Source: Gemmatimonadota bacterium
Lineage (GTDB): Bacteria; Latescibacterota; UBA2968; UBA8231
DNA: 10,750 bases
Assembly (NCBI GenBank): GCA_009845645.1
Contig: VXZF01000261.1
Location: 1 to 10,750, forward strand
Direction of reading: 5' to 3'
The position numbers were made by a program, and so were the translations under genes. Position 1 is the stretch's first letter. Every line of letters starts with the position of its first letter. Below, one piece after another: positions 1 through 8,825 of the stretch. The notes beneath the pieces are model-generated. The model was not told where the DNA came from. It saw only the letters and a program-made list of their open reading frames with translations, and searched no databases.

Positions 1-3000
1 ATGATGTCGGCGGAGCGAGGATCTTCGGCGATCAACGCTTCTTTAGTGTCGTTATTAATGACAAAGGCGTCGTTATAGCCAGTAAGAATTCCTCGATAAA
101 TCGCTATATCCCACTCTTTCAGTGGCGTTCCGACAGCTTCCATCTTGTCCATAATCGACTGTTCGATGCCCGACAGCGCACTCCACGGCTTTTCGCCCTG
201 CAGACGTAGTTCTCCCCAAAGGGATTCAGCGGGCGGGAAGGATTTATCGGACAAACGGTCCATATCCACGGCCCTGCCAGTTACGCCGTTGTGGCAATGG
301 CGCACTATCAGGATGTTGGTATCAACGATGGCGTTTTCAAAAACATCCTTGCCCATCTCCAGCAGGCGCAGCGGTGTGTGTTGCTCGGAGAGGTAGCGAC
401 GCAGGGCTTTACCGTATTCCGCCTTGAGCCAGCTATTGGAGGTGATATAGGCCAGCAAGCCTTGGGGCGCTCTGAGCAGCCGACAGCCGCGCTCGTAGAA
501 AAGCTGGTAGATATCGCCGGTGCGGGCGAAAGTTTCGTAGCCGGTATCCTTGTAGAGCTCGCCTAGTTCTCCGCCGTTTTTCTGCAACTGAATGTATGGT
601 GGATTCCCAATCACCACATCAAAGCCATCGTCAAAGCCGAACATATACTCGGCGTCGAACCAATCGGCAACAGCATTCTGGTCGTAGGGATTCCAATGGG
701 CGATTTTCTGAGCATCTTCAAGGCTAGAATTCAACTTTTCCTCACGTGCCTTGTAATCCTTCCATAGCTGTTTTCGTAGCTGCCTACGGTCCCGTTCCTT
801 CGGAAGTTGAGTCACTTTTCGATCTATTTCCCGTTGTTCTCTCTCTGCCCATTCTGCTCGCTTGAATTCCAATGCCTGCTTCAACCGTTTACGGCACTTC
901 TCTTCTTGGCGAATGTAATGGAGCTTTTGCGGCCGGTTGTTGGCAAGAAAATACTTTTCACGAATCGCTTCGATTTGCTTGCGATTTTGCTGTACAGCGT
1001 CGTCTTGGAGCAAAGATCTGACTTCGGATAGCTGCAACCCGATGAGCGTGTTTGCGGCGACAAATCGCGTTTCCAGATTCGGCAGTGGCTTGATGCCGAA
1101 ATTGTCGGCTGTCTCATATGCGTCCTGTTCAATGGCTAGCGAAATGAAAAAGCGCAGCTTGGCAATCTGGCAGGCCACGGACTGAATATCTATGCCAAAT
1201 ATGCTATTCTGGATTAAGTAGAGCTTACGCCCAAAATCGCCCGAATACCGCTCAAAGGTCTCGCTAATCTCCAGTAACTCAGCATCGCGTTCCTGTTGGT
1301 CTTGAGTCTCAAATGCCTTGTCCGCCCTTTTTTGGGCCTGTTCCTTTTGCAGCTTTTGCCAGCATTTGTTCTCAGGGTCAATTCGCTGCAACACCAAGGT
1401 CAGCTTGTGCAGTATGCCCATCGGAAAGGCACCGGAACCAACCGCCGGATCTAGCACCTTGATCTCCGCAATCGCTCGCACAATGCCCTCTGATTCGCAT
1501 TCCTCAAAAAGTTCATTGGCGTCGTTGAATGCGTCTTCATAATCCAGCAAATAGCGCAAACGCTCTTGCCAATACACCACGGCACCATCGTCAGGCTGCA
1601 CTTTTTTCTCCAACGTCGCCAACAAAACCTCGTCCACCATGTATTCCACCACGGCCCGGGGAGTGTAGTAGGAGCCTGTTTGCCTGCGTGCCGTCTCGCG
1701 CGTCTCCGGATTGTAGGCCGCCAGCAAGTTCTCAAAAACCTTGCCGAGCAATTCTGGGTCCAGAGCGACTTCCTGCTCTATAGGCGTGTTTTCCTCTACA
1801 GTGAACTTGTAGTGGTTGAACAGAGTAATCAGCCCGTCTTTATCGAAGAACAGCCTGTTGGGAATACTCAACTTTTTGTAATGCACATCGGAAAAGCAGT
1901 CAATGCGCCAGCCGCCATAGCTGGTCGCCTCCTCGCTGTCCAAACAGTCGAATAAGCCGCCGTTGATGAACGGAGTTTGGGATAACAGGTTCAGCAGCGC
2001 ATCGGGGTCGTTGATTTCCCGTTTGTAGCGATACCGCGAAAGATTGCGGTGCGTAGTGTTTCGCACTTTGCTGAAACCGCGTTTGTCGATCTCAGTATTT
2101 AGAGTGGCGAAAAACAGGTTTTGAAGCACCGCACGATAGTAGGAATCGCCGCCATCCGGGTCGTAATTTTTTAATAGGTCTGCAACTTGTTCCTCGACGA
2201 ACAAGTCTCCGGAGATCAGTCTCTTCTCCTTCATAAACCATACGAACAGCAGGCGTGTAATAAGACGGATGACGTGTTCTTCGGCGGTCAGAGTTCGGGC
2301 TTCATCGGTGGGGAACCGGGCCTCTTTGACAGCACGGTTAAACCAAGCGAATAGTTCCTGGTAGAACCGACGATTCAGTTCCTCGGTATTCAGTTTGTCC
2401 GACCAAGCGGCTAACAGGCCGTCAAAATTGTGTCTCCTCTTTTTAGCGTCCATCCACTCTACGCACTCGGACAGCGACAGTTCGGCCAAAATGTCCAGAT
2501 GGGCACGGTGGGTCTTGGCAGGGACAATCTCCCGTATCAGCGACACATGGCCCAGCACATCGCGCTTTGGATCGCGCTTGTGCTCGCGACGATGGACAAA
2601 GGACAGAGTGAGCCGATGATCGGCAGTTCTAAATAGGACGACAGTTGGTTGGCTCAGGCGCTTGTTGATCTCGCGGGTGAACTGCGCGTACTGGCCGCGA
2701 GTATAGGTTATTTCCTTCAGTTCCACGGCGAAGAAGAGAAAGCTCTGATGCTGTTCCTTGTCGAAAGAATCAGCCTCAAATCTAAGCGTTGGCTGGTTGG
2801 TCGAGGCGATTTCTTCACTTGTCACCTGAAAGATGAGTTGCACCGATTGGACATGCTTGCGGAATGCCTTTTCCGTTTGGGTATTCTGGTTCTCCGTCTG
2901 AAATTCTTGGATAAATTCATCCACACTGCCCGAAAGTTCCAGTATGCGATCACTCCTATATCCAAGGACATCCAGTAGCTTTTTAGTCCCCGATAGGAAA

Positions 3001-3065
3001 TCTCTGGCGGGTATGGCCTTCAGAGCCGGTCGAATCTGTTTCTTTGTTTGAGAATCGTTGCTCAT
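1..3065 (-). CDS. Eco57I/TaqI-class N6-adenine DNA methyltransferase, 3' end outside window
   Basis: The frame is open from ATG at 3065 to the left edge (1021 residues seen, no stop), so the gene is partial. It should transfer methyl from S-adenosylmethionine to adenine N6 in a specific DNA site. Residues 1-258 form an N-terminal domain shared with the upstream sigma fusion. About 230-450 is the helical linker usual in large type IIG-like methylases. GSYYTP (464-469) is motif X, DPAVGSGAF (539-547) is SAM-binding motif I, GIDI (624-627) lies at motif II, and NPPY (821-824) is the catalytic motif IV of gamma-class N6-adenine enzymes. RGILTGYNDAF (991-1001) is typical of the TaqI-like C-terminal specificity domain. 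A charged, probably coiled segment spans about 690-790. GGAG (3074-3077) lies 8 bases before the ATG. The gene is last in a helicase-sigma fusion-methylase order. The family is certain. Whether it also cuts DNA through its N-domain is unknown. Confidence 0.95.
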   Translation of the reverse strand, partial: MSNDSQTKKQIRPALKAIPARDFLSGTKKLLDVLGYRSDRILELSGSVDEFIQEFQTENQNTQTEKAFRKHVQSVQLIFQVTSEEIASTNQPTLRFEADSFDKEQHQSFLFFAVELKEITYTRGQYAQFTREINKRLSQPTVVLFRTADHRLTLSFVHRREHKRDPKRDVLGHVSLIREIVPAKTHRAHLDILAELSLSECVEWMDAKKRRHNFDGLLAAWSDKLNTEELNRRFYQELFAWFNRAVKEARFPTDEARTLTAEEHVIRLITRLLFVWFMKEKRLISGDLFVEEQVADLLKNYDPDGGDSYYRAVLQNLFFATLNTEIDKRGFSKVRNTTHRNLSRYRYKREINDPDALLNLLSQTPFINGGLFDCLDSEEATSYGGWRIDCFSDVHYKKLSIPNRLFFDKDGLITLFNHYKFTVEENTPIEQEVALDPELLGKVFENLLAAYNPETRETARRQTGSYYTPRAVVEYMVDEVLLATLEKKVQPDDGAVVYWQERLRYLLDYEDAFNDANELFEECESEGIVRAIAEIKVLDPAVGSGAFPMGILHKLTLVLQRIDPENKCWQKLQKEQAQKRADKAFETQDQQERDAELLEISETFERYSGDFGRKLYLIQNSIFGIDIQSVACQIAKLRFFISLAIEQDAYETADNFGIKPLPNLETRFVAANTLIGLQLSEVRSLLQDDAVQQNRKQIEAIREKYFLANNRPQKLHYIRQEEKCRKRLKQALEFKRAEWAEREQREIDRKVTQLPKERDRRQLRKQLWKDYKAREEKLNSSLEDAQKIAHWNPYDQNAVADWFDAEYMFGFDDGFDVVIGNPPYIQLQKNGGELGELYKDTGYETFARTGDIYQLFYERGCRLLRAPQGLLAYITSNSWLKAEYGKALRRYLSEQHTPLRLLEMGKDVFENAIVDTNILIVRHCHNGVTGRAVDMDRLSDKSFPPAESLWGELRLQGEKPWSALSGIEQSIMDKMEAVGTPLKEWDIAIYRGILTGYNDAFVINNDTKEALIAEDPRSADI

Positions 3066-3097
3066 GGGATCTGCTCCAGAGGGTTATATATTGCCAT
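3062..3097 (-). other. 11-codon leader frame overlapping the methyltransferase start
   Basis: ATG at 3097 is preceded by GGGAG (3105-3109) at 7 bases and reads MAIYNPLEQIP. Its TGA stop shares ATGA with the methyltransferase ATG. The frame is the same as the decayed helicase tail upstream of it, and the overlap copies the geometry of the true helicase stop over the sigma-fusion start at 4807-4810. I infer it is the surviving end of the duplicated helicase tail and may still couple translation into the methyltransferase. A chance frame is possible. Confidence 0.45.
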
Positions 3098-3208
3098 ATT
3101 TCCGCTCCCATCAATAGTAGTCTATATAATTCATCTCAGCCGCGTAGCCGTTCTCGGATCGGAATGTCACTTGCCAATCGTGGTGTTCAACAGTTTATCT
3201 TAACGGGC
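3066..3208 (-). pseudogene. Decayed duplicate of the helicase 3' end
   Basis: The 34 bases 3175-3208 match 4953-4986 inside the helicase gene at 29 positions with no gap. Read in the helicase frame the segment gives AR, stop, DKLLNTTIGK, stop, where the intact helicase has ARYDKLLNAVIAHI. Similarity fades toward 3100 but the frame returns at the very end as the 11-codon leader whose stop overlaps the next start. In-frame stops show it is not translated as a helicase tail. Its position directly before the methyltransferase is what a tandem duplication of 'helicase tail plus methyltransferase N-domain' would leave behind. Confidence 0.8.
3085..3114 (-). promoter_or_regulatory. Possible sigma-70-type promoter before the methyltransferase
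   Basis: On the minus strand TTGATG (3109-3114) and TATATA (3085-3090) are separated by 18 bases, inside the only AT-rich patch of the gap. Transcription would begin just before the methyltransferase ribosome binding site and skip most of the 11-codon leader. Matches are imperfect (4 of 6 in the -35 box) and such patterns arise by chance, so this is a candidate only. Confidence 0.2.
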
Positions 3209-3211
3209 GGG

Positions 3212-4810
3212 CTATGTGGTCAGCGTCTTCAGCGCTTGGTAAAATATCCGACGGCGTAGCTTGCTGAGTGCTTGATTCTTGATTTGGCGGATGCGCTCGC
3301 GCGTTAGATTCATCATGTCGCCAATTTCCTCAAGCGTCAGAGCCTGGTTACTATCAAGGCCAAAATAAAGCCTGATAACGCGCGATTCGCGCTCTTCGAG
3401 AAGCCCTAGGACCGTCTCTAACTGTATCAGCGCTGATTCGCGCAATATGTCGGCGTCAGGGGGAGCTGTCGTCTCATCAACCAAGATCTTGAGTTCGTCG
3501 AGGGAACACACCGTGCGATCGCTTCGGATAGTCTCTAGGATCTCTTTGGCTGGAACTTCAAGCTCAGCGGCGATTCTCTCTATGGCTTCTTCGGCCGTGC
3601 CTTCAGATTCGGCGTCGATTTCCTTTACGTCTGGCTCACTAGTCCGGTCCTGACTCAGTTTGCGCGCGGCTTTAGCAATATCTTTGAGTAAACTGACTCT
3701 GTTGAGTGGGAGGCGCACGATGCGCACATGCTCGGCGAGCGTCTGGAGGATGGACTGGCGAATCCACCACACCGCATAGGTAATGAATTTGCAACCCTTC
3801 GTCCCATCGAAGCGGTCGGCCGCCGTAATCAGCCCGAAATTACCAGCACTAATCAAGTCAGAGAGGGGCAGACCGCGATTTTGGTATTTCTTGGCCTCGT
3901 TAATGACAAAGCGCAAATTTGCCTGGATCATTTCGTCGCGTGCGCGCATGTCGCCATTTTTGATGCGGTCGGCCAGTTCTGCTTCGCGCTCCCTCGGAAG
4001 AGGTGTGGACTCTGCGATATCGTAGAAGTAAAGTCGTAGAGTTTGCTCCTCCCCTTCTGGGAATTTCTTCTCAAACACCGCCCGTTCAAACCAGTCGAAC
4101 GTATATCGGTAGAACTGCTGGTCGCGCTCTACGGTGTCCAGCTTGGCTTGCCAAGCTGCCAACAAACCTTCGCAATTATGCGGCTTGGCATTGGCCACCA
4201 TCCACGCGGCGCACTCCGGTAGCGATAGCTCGGACAGAACAGCGAGATCGGCGCGGCGCGGACTCTCTAGAGGAATATTCTTGCTCAACGACGTGACGCG
4301 CTCCAGCACATCACGACTATCATCGAGCTTGTGCGGACGACGTCCGATAACAGCGACGGTCAAGCGTGCTCCAGCTCGGAAGAAAACTACGGTTGGTAAG
4401 ATTGACCTCTTATCGATCTCCCGCGTAAATTCGTCATATACCCCTTGGGGGTAGTTGTCCTCCTTCAGTTCCACAGCGAAGAAGAGAACGCTCTGCTGCC
4501 GTCCCTCCTTAAAGGAAGCAGCCTCAAGCCCAAACGTCTGCTGATTAGCTGAGGCAATTTCATCATTTGTTATCTGAAAGGCGATTCGCACAGATTGGAC
4601 ATGCTTACGGAATGCCTGTTCAGTCTTAGTATCTGGTTTTAAGGCGGGAAATTCGTGGATAAAGCCATCTACGCTACCTGCAAGTTCTAGGGTGCGGTCA
4701 CTCTGATAGCCAAGAACTTCAAGTAGATCTTTAGTCGCCGCCAGAAAATCGCTGTAGGGTATGGCCGCTAAAGCGGCTCTAATGTCCTCTCGGATGTCGG
4801 TCGTGCTCAT
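3212..4810 (-). CDS. Fusion of methyltransferase N-terminal domain to a sigma-70 factor
   Basis: 532 residues from ATG 4810. The track of codons is open upstream to a TTG at 4831, but the ATG aligns with the methyltransferase start and overlaps the helicase stop as ATGA, so I chose it. Residues 1-258 match the methyltransferase N-domain, including FRKHVQSV (68-74 region) and LFFAVELKE (109-117). Residues 259-285 are sigma region 1.2. Region 2 spans about 290-370, with ANLRFVI, core-binding GLPLSDLISAGNFGL and TYAVWWIRQSI. Region 3 is about 370-450 and region 4 about 455-522, with helix-turn-helix LTLEEIGDMMNLTRERIRQI (491-510). Region 1.1 is absent. The sigma part resembles short Bacteroidota/Chlorobiota-type primary sigmas. 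It should bind core RNA polymerase and direct it to promoters. What the N-domain adds (DNA, helicase or polymerase contact) is unknown. No frameshift or missing core motif is seen, so it looks functional. Confidence 0.93.
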   Translation of the reverse strand: MSTTDIREDIRAALAAIPYSDFLAATKDLLEVLGYQSDRTLELAGSVDGFIHEFPALKPDTKTEQAFRKHVQSVRIAFQITNDEIASANQQTFGLEAASFKEGRQQSVLFFAVELKEDNYPQGVYDEFTREIDKRSILPTVVFFRAGARLTVAVIGRRPHKLDDSRDVLERVTSLSKNIPLESPRRADLAVLSELSLPECAAWMVANAKPHNCEGLLAAWQAKLDTVERDQQFYRYTFDWFERAVFEKKFPEGEEQTLRLYFYDIAESTPLPREREAELADRIKNGDMRARDEMIQANLRFVINEAKKYQNRGLPLSDLISAGNFGLITAADRFDGTKGCKFITYAVWWIRQSILQTLAEHVRIVRLPLNRVSLLKDIAKAARKLSQDRTSEPDVKEIDAESEGTAEEAIERIAAELEVPAKEILETIRSDRTVCSLDELKILVDETTAPPDADILRESALIQLETVLGLLEERESRVIRLYFGLDSNQALTLEEIGDMMNLTRERIRQIKNQALSKLRRRIFYQALKTLTT

Positions 4811-4986
4811 GCCTCTGCAACAATCAGCCAAGTTATTAGCTCAAAATCAGCATTACTCGGTTTTGAGGGTTTATTCGACAATCTGGAGTCGCGCTGACCG
4901 TGAATGCCCAGTTGCCGTATCTGCGTGGCTCTGTCCGCCCTGCCGATATGGGCAATCACGGCGTTCAACAGTTTGTCGTAACGGGC
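4037..4986 (-). repeat. Tandem duplication, copy 1 (helicase tail + sigma-fusion N-domain)
   Basis: Partner of 2289-3208. Here the helicase tail is intact and the methyltransferase-type N-domain is joined, at about residue 258, to a sigma factor instead of the methylase core. The homology to the methyltransferase stops within a few residues of where sigma region 1.2 begins (FPEGEEQTL then RLYFYDIAE), so the junction is sharp. Confidence 0.8.
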
Positions 4987-7900
4987 CATGTCTTGGCCCT
5001 TTTGGGTTTCGCGGTCAAACTGGTCGCACAGCTTTTGCAACGGCTCGGTCTTGCCGAGAGCTACCGATTCAAATAACTCCAGCACCTGCCGAGTATTGGC
5101 ACAACCGTAGCGGATATACTCGTTGTCGCGGATATAGACCGCATAATACGGATGAATCGGGCTAGCCCTTTTTTCTCTTTTGTCAGGGCTGGCGTTACGC
5201 TGACGCAGGAAAAATATTACGCCCGGCTGTGCAGTGTCGCCCTCCCCGTCGGTTACTGCATAGGCCCCATGAGGCATTGCTTCTAGTTCCGCCTTGTTTT
5301 GCTCCAAATACCGCAACAATTGGGCAAAAAAGTAATCGAGCGTAAAGTCGCTCATAACGACGCCATCGGACAGCTCGTCTAAGTCCAGCTCCCCTTCGCG
5401 CATTTTTTTTAGTTGCTCGTCGCGGAAATTTAGATCCATCTGGATCTGCTCAGACGGGTCTTCGTTCAATGGATCGTCGTCGCCGCTGGCTGTGGCATCC
5501 GCCAAGGCCATGCGTGCTTGCACACGACTTTGCAGGCGCAGATAGACCTCCATGTCCTTGGTGGGCCAATAGTTAATCATCCTCACTGACTGGTTGCGAC
5601 TGCCGATGCGGTCAATGCGCCCGAAGCGCTGGATGATGCGCACCGGATTCCAGTGAATGTCGTAGTTGAGTACGGTATCGCAATCTTGAAGGTTCTGCCC
5701 CTCTGAGATACAATCAGTAGCAATCAACAGGTCGATTCCGTTGGTGCTATTGGCCTGCCCATGTGCCCGTGGCGCGAAGTGGGTCAGAATGGCGTTGAAG
5801 TTGTTAGGGCCGGAAGCGGTGTGCGTTGTGTCCCCAGAGACCATCGCCATGTTCAATCCCAATTCGCTCGCCAAGTCTCCTAAGTTCTCATACAAGTACT
5901 CCGCCGTGTCCTTGAAGGTGGTAAACACCAGCATCTTACGATTGATTCGGCCATCCTTGTCGGTCGTCGGGTGTCGTACCCTGTCCCGAATATGCTCCTT
6001 GATCTCTCGCAGCTTGCCGTCCCGTTCCGGCGTGATAACACTGACCCGTTCATAGACTGTCTCCAAGGTCTTCTTATCCTTTAGCAAGTCCTCTTTCCAA
6101 CGGGGCAGATCCAACTCGCGCAGATGGTAAGGGGTGCGTGCCCGATTGATCTGAAATTCCTCGTCATCTTCCTCATCATCTGGGAGGATATCCGCTCGCT
6201 CGTCCAACAGCAGGCTTTGCTCATAGTGGTCTATCTTTTGTAGCAGGTCTTTAATTTTGCCGAGAGTGCGCTCGAGCGTTTCCGTCAGAGAATGGGCAGA
6301 ACTTTCTAGGCGTTTCAGAAAGTTGACTCGTATCATACCGATGAGGAAGCGCTCGCGATCTGCCTGATTAAACCGCAGTTGCTTCTTTTCGTCCGCCAAC
6401 CGTTTCTTGGCCTCTGCGCTGGTAACGTAGCTTGACGGCCGGTAGATGGATAAGGCGAACCGCTCGATCCGCTCGGATAAATTTTTATATGAAAGTTCGT
6501 CCTTTAAATCCGTCAGTGGGTATCGATTGTTCGGCTGTTGCCGCGTGGGGAATTGGCCGATTCTGTCCATTTCTTCGGCGTAGAACTGCTTGATCTGCCG
6601 CCGCGAGCGAGCAATGGAAACGCCGCCCAACAGCTTAAAAAAATCAGCGCCCAATGTCTCCAGTAATGTTGTCTTGTCCTTCTTGCCGCTCTTCTCCGCT
6701 TTCGTCTCCCATGTTTTAAACTCCTTTTGCGCCTGCCCCAGCAGAGTGCCAATATGGCCAACGCCTAGGCTTTCCCGAAACACGTCCTCGCGCTTTTCAG
6801 TCATCAGGTAAATCTGATTTCGGAGGTCAATAAGCGAAGTGTTGACCGGCGTCGCTGAAAGCATCAGCACCTTGGTTTGGGTACCAGCTTGGATAACTTC
6901 TTCCAATAACCGCGAGTAGCGGCTGTGGCGAATCTTACCGTCTTCTTCAAAACGGGACTTGGAGTCATTGCGGAAATTGTGCGATTCGTCGATGACCACC
7001 ATGTCGAAGTTACGCCATTTGAAGTCTGTCAGATCAATGTCACCAGCTTTCCCACTGCTGCGGGACAAGTCAGTGTGCGATAGCAAGGTGTAGCTAAAGC
7101 GATCATCTATGAAGGGATTACCGGCTTGGGCATTATAAACTGGATACAGTGCCCAATTTTCGCGCAATTTCTTGGGACACAACACTAGCACCCGCTCGTT
7201 GAGCAATTCAAAGAATTTGATGACCGCTAGCGCTGTGTAGGTCTTTCCTAAGCCTACAGCATCGGCCAAAATACAGCCGTTATGCCGCCGCAGGTAGGCA
7301 ATAACACTTTTAACTCCATCTTTTTGGAAGTCGTATAGGGTGTTCCAGATTGCGGTATCGTATAGGTTCGTATCTTTTAGGTGGCTTTCGCCGGCCTTTC
7401 TCGCTTCGATGTCCTCTTGGAACAACTCGTAAAGCGTTTTATAATAGATCAACTCCGACGCGTACTCTCTGCCTATCCGCGCCAGCGCGTCCAGCACGTC
7501 CTTTTTGACATCCTTGGTCAGCGTCTCATCTGCCCACAGATCGTCAAACCATTGTTGCAGTTCGGTGCAAGTAGCTGCGTTTTGGGTTGCCAAGTTGATT
7601 TCTACGTTGGCACTCGTCCCGCTGCCTAAGCCGCCGCGAGTGAAGTTGGAGCTACCGACCACCGCTGTGCCGCCATTGGCTGATTCGGTGAGATACATCT
7701 TGCCGTGCAGAAAGTTGGACTTGCCAATGGAGCGAATTTTGACGCCTTTGCTGCTTACCCATGCTTCGCATTGGCGGGCGAGGTATTTCTGTTGCAAGGC
7801 GTGTTGGGGAGATAGCCCGTCTTCGGTCAGGTTGAAGGCTTTTTGCGCTTTCTCTCCAGGGTCTAACTCGCCGACCGATGCCGGATCCCCAAAGAGGAAG

Positions 7901-8064
7901 CGCACATCCTTAACACCGCTCAATTCGCATCGCAGGGCCTCGTACCCATAGATGGTGAAATACGCCGAAACGAGGCGAAACACCTCGGTAGCGGACAGGT
8001 GCTGCCGCAAATAATCGACAACGCGACGCTGGCGATTGTCTAGGATGTGTTCGTATTCTGCCAT
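4807..8064 (-). CDS. PLD-like nuclease / SNF2-family helicase
   Basis: 1085 residues from ATG 8064. An in-frame TTG at 8097, touching the stop of the preceding stub, would add 11 residues. Neither start has a clear ribosome binding site, and I prefer the ATG because MAEYEHIL begins the folded part. Residue numbers from the ATG: a phospholipase-D-like domain with HGKMYL near 120 and GSSNFTRGGLG near 137-147; Walker A DAVGLGKT near 268-275; Walker B DESH near 359-362; SAT near 403; then the second RecA domain with LVFTTF near 712, ATDCISEGQNL near 782, and motif VI QRFGRIDRIG near 812-821. An acidic patch (DDEEDDEE) lies near 630. The motor likely translocates on duplex DNA using ATP, and the PLD domain may cut. 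Only one HxK motif is seen, so it may dimerise, as is known for single-motif PLD nucleases. Its stop overlaps the sigma-fusion start, implying coupled translation. Restriction-like or defence role with the methyltransferase is inferred. Confidence 0.93.
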   Translation of the reverse strand: MAEYEHILDNRQRRVVDYLRQHLSATEVFRLVSAYFTIYGYEALRCELSGVKDVRFLFGDPASVGELDPGEKAQKAFNLTEDGLSPQHALQQKYLARQCEAWVSSKGVKIRSIGKSNFLHGKMYLTESANGGTAVVGSSNFTRGGLGSGTSANVEINLATQNAATCTELQQWFDDLWADETLTKDVKKDVLDALARIGREYASELIYYKTLYELFQEDIEARKAGESHLKDTNLYDTAIWNTLYDFQKDGVKSVIAYLRRHNGCILADAVGLGKTYTALAVIKFFELLNERVLVLCPKKLRENWALYPVYNAQAGNPFIDDRFSYTLLSHTDLSRSSGKAGDIDLTDFKWRNFDMVVIDESHNFRNDSKSRFEEDGKIRHSRYSRLLEEVIQAGTQTKVLMLSATPVNTSLIDLRNQIYLMTEKREDVFRESLGVGHIGTLLGQAQKEFKTWETKAEKSGKKDKTTLLETLGADFFKLLGGVSIARSRRQIKQFYAEEMDRIGQFPTRQQPNNRYPLTDLKDELSYKNLSERIERFALSIYRPSSYVTSAEAKKRLADEKKQLRFNQADRERFLIGMIRVNFLKRLESSAHSLTETLERTLGKIKDLLQKIDHYEQSLLLDERADILPDDEEDDEEFQINRARTPYHLRELDLPRWKEDLLKDKKTLETVYERVSVITPERDGKLREIKEHIRDRVRHPTTDKDGRINRKMLVFTTFKDTAEYLYENLGDLASELGLNMAMVSGDTTHTASGPNNFNAILTHFAPRAHGQANSTNGIDLLIATDCISEGQNLQDCDTVLNYDIHWNPVRIIQRFGRIDRIGSRNQSVRMINYWPTKDMEVYLRLQSRVQARMALADATASGDDDPLNEDPSEQIQMDLNFRDEQLKKMREGELDLDELSDGVVMSDFTLDYFFAQLLRYLEQNKAELEAMPHGAYAVTDGEGDTAQPGVIFFLRQRNASPDKREKRASPIHPYYAVYIRDNEYIRYGCANTRQVLELFESVALGKTEPLQKLCDQFDRETQKGQDMARYDKLLNAVIAHIGRADRATQIRQLGIHGQRDSRLSNKPSKPSNADFELITWLIVAEA

Positions 8065-8097
8065 ATCGGATAGGGAAAGAAGTGAGCAGGCTTTCAA

Positions 8098-8280
8098 TTA
8101 CTTAGAGCCTATGAGGAAGATGAGGCCCAAGACAACGTGCTTGTACTCGGCAGCATCCATGCTACCGTGCAAGGCGTCGGCCATTTGCCATAGCTTGGCC
8201 TCGTAGCCGGTAGTGGCCCCATTGCCGGTCTGCTCACGCTTTGTGTTGGAGAGTGTCTGTTTCTGTCGCGTTGTCGTCAT
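8098..8280 (-). CDS. Truncated HsdM N-terminal stub (type I methyltransferase)
   Basis: 60 residues from ATG 8280, with GGAG (8285-8288) 4 bases upstream. Residues 27-55 read [20 protein letters not shown] followed by [11 protein letters not shown], which is the helical N-terminal domain of HsdM, the modification subunit of type I restriction systems. In the family this continues as KYISD and a methylase of 450-550 residues. Here it turns to IGSK and stops. The stop TAA abuts the TTG at 8097 of the helicase frame with no spacer. No methylase motif follows, so it cannot methylate. I infer a recombination joint where the helicase module replaced the rest of hsdM and perhaps kept its promoter and ribosome binding site. 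A -10-like TATGAT (8315-8320, minus) lies upstream without a convincing -35. Alternatively it is a small protein with its own role. Confidence 0.7.
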
Positions 8281-8825
8281 TGTGCTCCGCTTCTAACAGT
8301 AGCCTGTAAGGGCGATCATAAAAATCAGCAGAACAGACTAATACACCGGCAGGCTGTTGTCCACCGTCCCGGCGAATTCATCGACGATTGGTCCCGTGTA
8401 CGGAATTATGGCCCTCGGCGGGCAAAAATGCCCAGCACGGGTTTACCGTTCTTCCTTGTCCATGAACCTCTTTATATTTTTGCCATTACCCAAGGGCGCA
8501 CATGGACGGAAGCCATATCCGGTCTCGGCGGCTGTGTCAGCAAGCACACGAAGGCCCCCACCCCGGAATTTTCCCAGAGCGGGACCTGTCTAGCACCGTC
8601 TCTCTTGTCGGCGAGTGTGTATAGTTTGACCGCGGACTCAGGCCCGCGCTATTAATCGCTTGGCCCCGAGATGGTCAATTCGGACTGGTTGGACAGTTGC
8701 TTGCCATCGGCTTGGGATACTTAGCAGGCCTAAGCATGGACGCCCGAAAGCCTGAAAAACGGGCGCAGACGGCGGCCTGAACTTCCCTCCCCCATCTCAT
8801 ACTCCCGATAGGGCCTCGTCGTCTC

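Follow-up and report, generated by a model that had tools for sequence, protein, structure and literature searches.

Which role could a sigma factor, the RNA polymerase component that selects promoters, play when it is fused to the N-terminal domain of a DNA methyltransferase and encoded in the restriction-type operon of that same methyltransferase? We approached this question in a window of 10,750 nucleotides, the whole stretch of DNA that was analysed, which is also an entire contig (G000:C384) of a 4.37 Mb bin comprising 769 contigs and judged 75% complete. Read along the minus strand, the gene for an HKD (PLD-like)-SNF2 helicase is followed by the fusion gene, a 146-nt leader and the gene for an N6-adenine methyltransferase (Table 1). 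The helicase stop codon and the fusion start codon overlap (ATGA, 4810-4807), and the reading frame of the fusion runs unbroken from an ATG at 4810 to a stop that ends at 3212. The methyltransferase, whose N-domain is made up of its residues 1-262, runs past the contig end.

Table 1. Features of the window, in window coordinates; PADLOC results for the helicase and the methyltransferase are from the best 25 of 44 rows for each.
Feature	Positions	Strand	Remarks
Fusion protein, 532 aa	3212..4810	-	N-domain + sigma-70; 57 homologous fusions among 120 listed proteins
N-domain, fusion residues 1-258	4037..4810	-	Paralogue of methyltransferase N-domain
Sigma-70 half, fusion residues 259-532	3212..4036	-	Part of region 1.2, regions 2, 3 (insert), 3.2 (shortened) and 4
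HKD (PLD-like)-SNF2 helicase	4807..8064	-	PADLOC HKD+Snf2 model, E 1.6e-109
N6-adenine methyltransferase, type IIG-like	3..3065	-	Eco57I, E 2.4e-34 (Pfam); type IIG model, E 4.1e-101 (PADLOC)
Leader, fusion-to-methyltransferase gap	3066..3211	-	HigB-tail-like remnant 3111-3194 and 11-codon frame 3062-3097
63-aa remnant of type I methyltransferase N-terminus (HsdM_N)	8098..8289	-	E 1.3e-7; immediately upstream of helicase

The fusion is real and recurrent. Searching proteins some 290-930 residues long for the N-domain gave 136 homologues, 120 of which were listed and classified: 57 carry a sigma half, 62 a methyltransferase body and one neither. The original prediction allowed for two ways in which the fusion might prove illusory, an assembly joint between its halves or its absence from every other genome, and we found neither. 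The frame is intact in the window and several of the homologous fusions sit on contigs of over 5 Mb. Among 64 genomes of the phylum, seven carry the fusion, all of them among the 47 genomes of the class and distributed over three families; some of the 57 listed fusion proteins are the same genes as those in the seven genomes. The fusion also stays beside its two partners, with the helicase upstream in all seven genomes and the methyltransferase downstream in six.

The sigma half is of the housekeeping type and belongs to the sigma-70 family, as both region 2 (Pfam E 2e-15, 56.8 bits against a cut-off of 24) and region 4 (E 2.8e-16, 59.2 bits against 24.1) exceed the curated cut-offs. Region 3 passes as well, at 26.6 bits against 25.3, and region 1.2 stays below its cut-off of 22 bits with a score of 19.5. 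The predicted model of the fusion fits region 2 of RpoS at 1.0 Å over 94 residues. Set against the free sigma factor of its own genome, the window fusion is 10 residues short in region 3.2 and carries an insert within region 3; P0005, which is 93% identical to it overall, shows the same loss. The earlier description of regions 1.2, 2, 3 and 4 complete with all hallmarks therefore stands for regions 2, 3 and 4, which pass Pfam, and has to be amended for region 1.2, for the shortened region 3.2 and for the insert.

Across its relatives, 57 fused rows extend as far as the recognition helix of region 4, and 54 of these 57 retain its motif RER(I/V)RQ. The fusion of G026 has RARIHQ in place of RERIRQ, and those of P0037 and P0050 have one change each in the motif. 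The WW pair of region 2 is retained in 50/59 fused rows, and its first W is replaced by H or Y in 8/59. At seven sites conserved in 90% or more of 40 free sigmas, half or more of 56 fused sigmas have a different residue. One such site is an alignment edge, another belongs to region 2.1, where 32 of 56 have E for V, and a further two close region 4.2. The regions to which we assign single sigma residues, and the roles that we give them, are those we presume them to have. Among the rows displayed, the fusions of L011 (7980-9689) and P0045 hold a short region 3 unit in several extra copies.

The other half of the protein is a relative of its neighbour. Over residues 5-258, the N-domain is 55% identical to that of the methyltransferase in the same operon (54% in another alignment), which bears out an earlier estimate of about 53%. 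Its predicted model (pLDDT 85) gives a weak match to the restriction-endonuclease-like fold, bearing on a possible membership of the PD-(D/E)XK nucleases, whose hallmarks are that fold and a catalytic acid-acid-x-lysine set. DUF4391, with a cut-off of 29.9 bits, was not reached, the best scores being 25.2 bits among six proteins and 26.9 bits in the methyltransferase frames of relatives. One inserted residue is common to all 60 fused N-domains and occurs in none of 76 methyltransferase N-domains. In a tree from which N-parts spanning fewer than 230 residues were excluded, one branch separates the same 60 from the same 76. Because the support of this split is only 63, we base the distinction between fused and methyltransferase N-domains on the inserted residue.

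We tentatively favour the reading that the fusion is the system's own dedicated sigma subunit, tied through its N-domain to the helicase/methyltransferase system and driving that system's transcription. The copied N-domain would dock the fusion on the helicase, or on DNA engaged by the methyltransferase, at the place where the methyltransferase itself would dock. The sigma half would form a holoenzyme and recruit RNA polymerase to a promoter of the system itself, which would most likely lie ahead of the methyltransferase gene, with the leader as the first candidate, so that the supply of methyltransferase would be coupled to assembly of the complex. The controller proteins of restriction-modification systems are small helix-turn-helix activators that offer a likeness in the transcriptional tie of enzyme supply to the state of the system, although they are not sigma factors. 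The fusion would in effect be such a controller, built from a sigma factor instead of a helix-turn-helix regulator.

A sigma half could also serve without choosing promoters, if the fusion were a tether that holds the helicase complex to RNA polymerase, so that incoming DNA is inspected as it is transcribed or its transcription is stopped. The helicase does show a weak match (48 bits, cut-off 576) to RapA, an SNF2 protein associated with RNA polymerase, of a kind that any SNF2 protein may give, and RapA-like architecture is described for BREX and BREX-related helicases in excerpts of one account (PMC12839542). The overlap between the helicase stop and the fusion start would suit a tether, as would the well-kept region 2, and the changes seen in the recognition helix of a few copies would matter less to it. 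Mere tethering, however, has no need of the recognition helix of region 4, which those 54 of 57 rows nevertheless keep. We regard a tether as rather unlikely.

The sigma half has a traceable ancestry. In the window it shares 80% identity with the same genome's free sigma, which itself has matches of 94-100% in nine of ten other genomes of the genus; in the exception, G005, the best match is shorter and 76% identical. We placed the fused sigmas in a tree of 59 fused and 23 free rows, from which sigma parts of listed proteins spanning 220 or less were excluded, and in a careful tree of 16 of the 56 first-type fused sigmas, three others and 40 free sigmas. The first-type fused sigmas form one group (94/97) that adjoins the window genus's free sigma and falls within the sigma family of the bacterial family f1. 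Carriers outside f1 include G026, G029 and G037 in family f3 and G040 and G041 in family f4, where the best identities to the carriers' own free sigmas are 55-56% and 52%, respectively. Since the fused sigma groups with the free sigma of the window's genus but is also carried by members of two other families, this nesting is most simply explained by horizontal spread of the fusion, and the tree suggests that the sigma was captured from the window's own genus and spread later.

Not all fused sigmas belong to this group. In P0055, P0060 and P0064, the same kind of N-domain is joined to a sigma half from another branch (100/100), and the hypothesis that all fused sigmas arose once is rejected (p-AU 0.0013). 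The N-domains of these three proteins have the inserted residue typical of all fused N-domains, and therefore two sigma lineages are worn by one kind of N-domain. With the low support of the split in the N-domain tree, it is possible that two separate fusions took place onto closely related N-domains. At the identity of P0055, no fusion of this second type was found in the 64 phylum genomes searched.

Purifying selection acts on both halves of the fusion. The seven genomic copies make 21 pairs, in which dN/dS ranges over 0.18-0.36 in the N-domain and 0.19-0.31 in the fused sigma half. The free sigma of the genus gives 0.01-0.04 in three pairs, the fourth pair being saturated; constraint is weaker on the fused sigmas than on the free one. 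A sigma half that evolves faster than its free relative and is still constrained would fit an arms race, one in which it acts as bait for phage proteins that seize host sigma factors and in which their binding triggers the helicase-nuclease. Phage anti-sigma factors are known, and the pairing of two sigma lineages with one kind of N-domain, like the altered positions of region 2.1 and of the last part of region 4.2, could be read as signs of such a decoy. That dN/dS lies well under 1 in every one of the 21 pairs argues the other way, and we consider a decoy improbable.

The place of the fusion in the operon is shared with other genes. The helicase directly precedes the fusion in four of the seven genomes, and in three a single module lies between them: HigBA in G026 and G029 (with the Pfam test made on the G026 pair) and AIPR in G037. 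In G029, the contig ends 122 nt past the fusion frame, which itself stops early, in region 3.2; the helicase of this genome is split. Relatives of the helicase-methyltransferase pair without a fusion occur in G007, G034, G052 and G027, whose helicase is 73% identical, and as second loci of G029 and G037, and the core therefore does not need the fusion. In G034, G052 and the second loci of G037 and G029, the methyltransferase comes directly after the helicase, in the place that the fusion occupies in three-gene loci. A second locus of G027 has a methyltransferase and no helicase match within the stretch taken. In the gap between helicase and methyltransferase of G027, a MazEF-like pair can be made out by eye (L088:8970-9620, minus strand), and thus the slot accepts varied toxin-antitoxin modules.

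These occupants raise the question of whether the fusion is itself cargo of an addiction type, one of several stabilising modules that gather between helicase and methyltransferase. The HigBA, AIPR and MazEF-like occupants fit this idea, as does the HigB-like remnant in the window, but the fusion has its N-domain in common with the methyltransferase, and no antidote gene was seen beside the fusion in the window; we think cargo of this kind very improbable. A chance joint without function, or an artefact of assembly, for which the fragmented window bin and the curtailed G029 locus might speak, keeps scarcely any probability and is refuted by the recurrence of the fusion (57 listed proteins, several on contigs of over 5 Mb, and seven genomes in three families), and the evolution of both halves is constrained.

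If the fusion is a dedicated sigma subunit, the leader is the first candidate for its target. In four of six loci, the leader consists, as judged by eye, of a remnant resembling the tail of HigB and a short frame that runs into the start of the methyltransferase. Across the six pairs of these four loci the leader is 80-94% identical, against 39-76% (1 minus pS) for the fusion gene's synonymous sites in those pairs; conservation of the leader exceeds that of synonymous sites. The leader occurs as one copy per genome in four of ten genomes searched and is absent from both loci of the third family (G040 and G041), and it therefore cannot be the sole target. A promoter scan of positions 3000-8700 returned seven sites, against 4.2 +/- 2.1 in shuffles, and identified no promoter. 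It thus lends no support to the suggestion of the original prediction that the sigma expresses this locus, a suggestion that is plausible all the same, as is the one that the N-domain may share a binding partner with the methyltransferase. Upstream of the helicase, comparison by eye of four loci revealed no block common to all of them.

Several lines of evidence thus argue for a dedicated sigma subunit: the recurrence of the fusion, its constant position after the helicase and before the methyltransferase, purifying selection, motifs of regions 2 and 4 that are mostly kept, two sigma lineages on one kind of N-domain, and a leader more conserved than synonymous sites. Others weigh against it. 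No promoter stands out in the scan, the leader is not universal, and the four loci compared share no block ahead of the helicase. The loss of 10 residues from region 3.2 in the window copy could weaken initiation, promoter-reading residues are changed in a few copies, and the free sigma is under tighter constraint than its fused counterparts. The helicase-methyltransferase relatives that do without a fusion and the support of only 63 for the N-domain split count on the same side.

A restriction system has to weigh production of its modifying enzyme against the arming of its effector. If our reading is true, the union of a sigma factor with the enzyme's N-domain would connect a defence complex directly to RNA polymerase, and it opens a clear test, namely whether the defence complex chooses what is transcribed. 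The fusion also suggests that sigma factors can pass from one family to another together with cargo of their own, and that one kind of docking domain can exchange its sigma half. We find it possible, if rather doubtful, that the fusion represents a new kind of immune regulator, in which the DNA- or partner-binding head of a restriction-type enzyme, placed on a sigma factor, recruits RNA polymerase according to the state of the defence complex (its assembly, or methylation of the DNA under it) and the module moves between families with its own sigma.

Sigma factors have other associations with immunity: dCas12f is paired with a sigma factor, and MzaA of the MZA anti-phage system resembles the fusion in that a defence operon encodes it and its sigma-70 part follows a long N-terminal extension. 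MzaA is the best NCBIfam match of the fusion and its only PADLOC match, but judged by its score, 216 bits against a cut-off of 800, the fusion is not MzaA. The sigma part alone matches (profile 434-712 of 726), leaving the fusion's extension unmatched. Where the MZA operon has MzaB to MzaE, the neighbours here are an HKD-SNF2 helicase and a methyltransferase (by Pfam, and within the best 25 of 44 PADLOC rows for each, with the contig ending inside the methyltransferase). AIPR, the gene type present in one related locus, that of G037, is named with MZA-like systems in excerpts of one report (PMC9523054).

The CalpL-CalpT-CalpS operon of type III CRISPR is, in the excerpted description, an immune operon with a sigma factor as its output, CalpS, which a protease frees from an anti-sigma (PMC12751052). 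The sigma of the window, by contrast, forms one chain with the N-domain of an enzyme, and there is no protease among its two operon partners. Type-2 BREX-related systems resemble the locus in their parts, since the excerpted account gives them an HKD-Snf2 helicase effector and an N6-adenine methyltransferase, both of which are present here, and it also lists DUF499 and DUF3780 (PMC12839542). Neither DUF499 nor DUF3780 was found among eight scanned flanking frames of L009, L011, L080 and L081; the window contig ends inside the methyltransferase. The sole sigma link in those excerpts is a sigma-like helical domain in BrxL, and they describe no fusion to a sigma factor (PMC12839542). DrmD of DISARM was rejected as the identity of the helicase, with 145 bits against a cut-off of 610.

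The methyltransferase core matches type IIG models in PADLOC and, through Eco57I, in Pfam (Table 1). Type IIG enzymes such as DrdV match weakly here, a likeness that carries no nuclease claim, and we know of no sigma fusion among them. A restriction-type domain joined to a sigma factor is described in no title or abstract opening among the literature matches listed. The original prediction, which knew of no restriction-type protein fused to a sigma factor, is tempered by MzaA and CalpS, with which sigma factors in immune operons were already known. The fusion to a restriction-type domain is a variant of these, with a fair chance of being more.

Some of the loci and contigs compared have further features of their own. 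In G026 (L009:12725-14313 and 14320-15393), an inverted second specificity piece of TaqI_C type (13532-14089, minus strand) stands behind the methyltransferase, flanked by 156-nt inverted arms of 71% and then by a tyrosine recombinase, and it looks like an invertible specificity cassette. In G034, which has no fusion, the methyltransferase ends beside an inverted piece that resembles its C-terminal portion, and the arms there are 51 nt long, at 80% (L090:13833-14847). Two RpoD-like sigma genes lie side by side on the viral contigs L107, L114, L121, L155 and L170.
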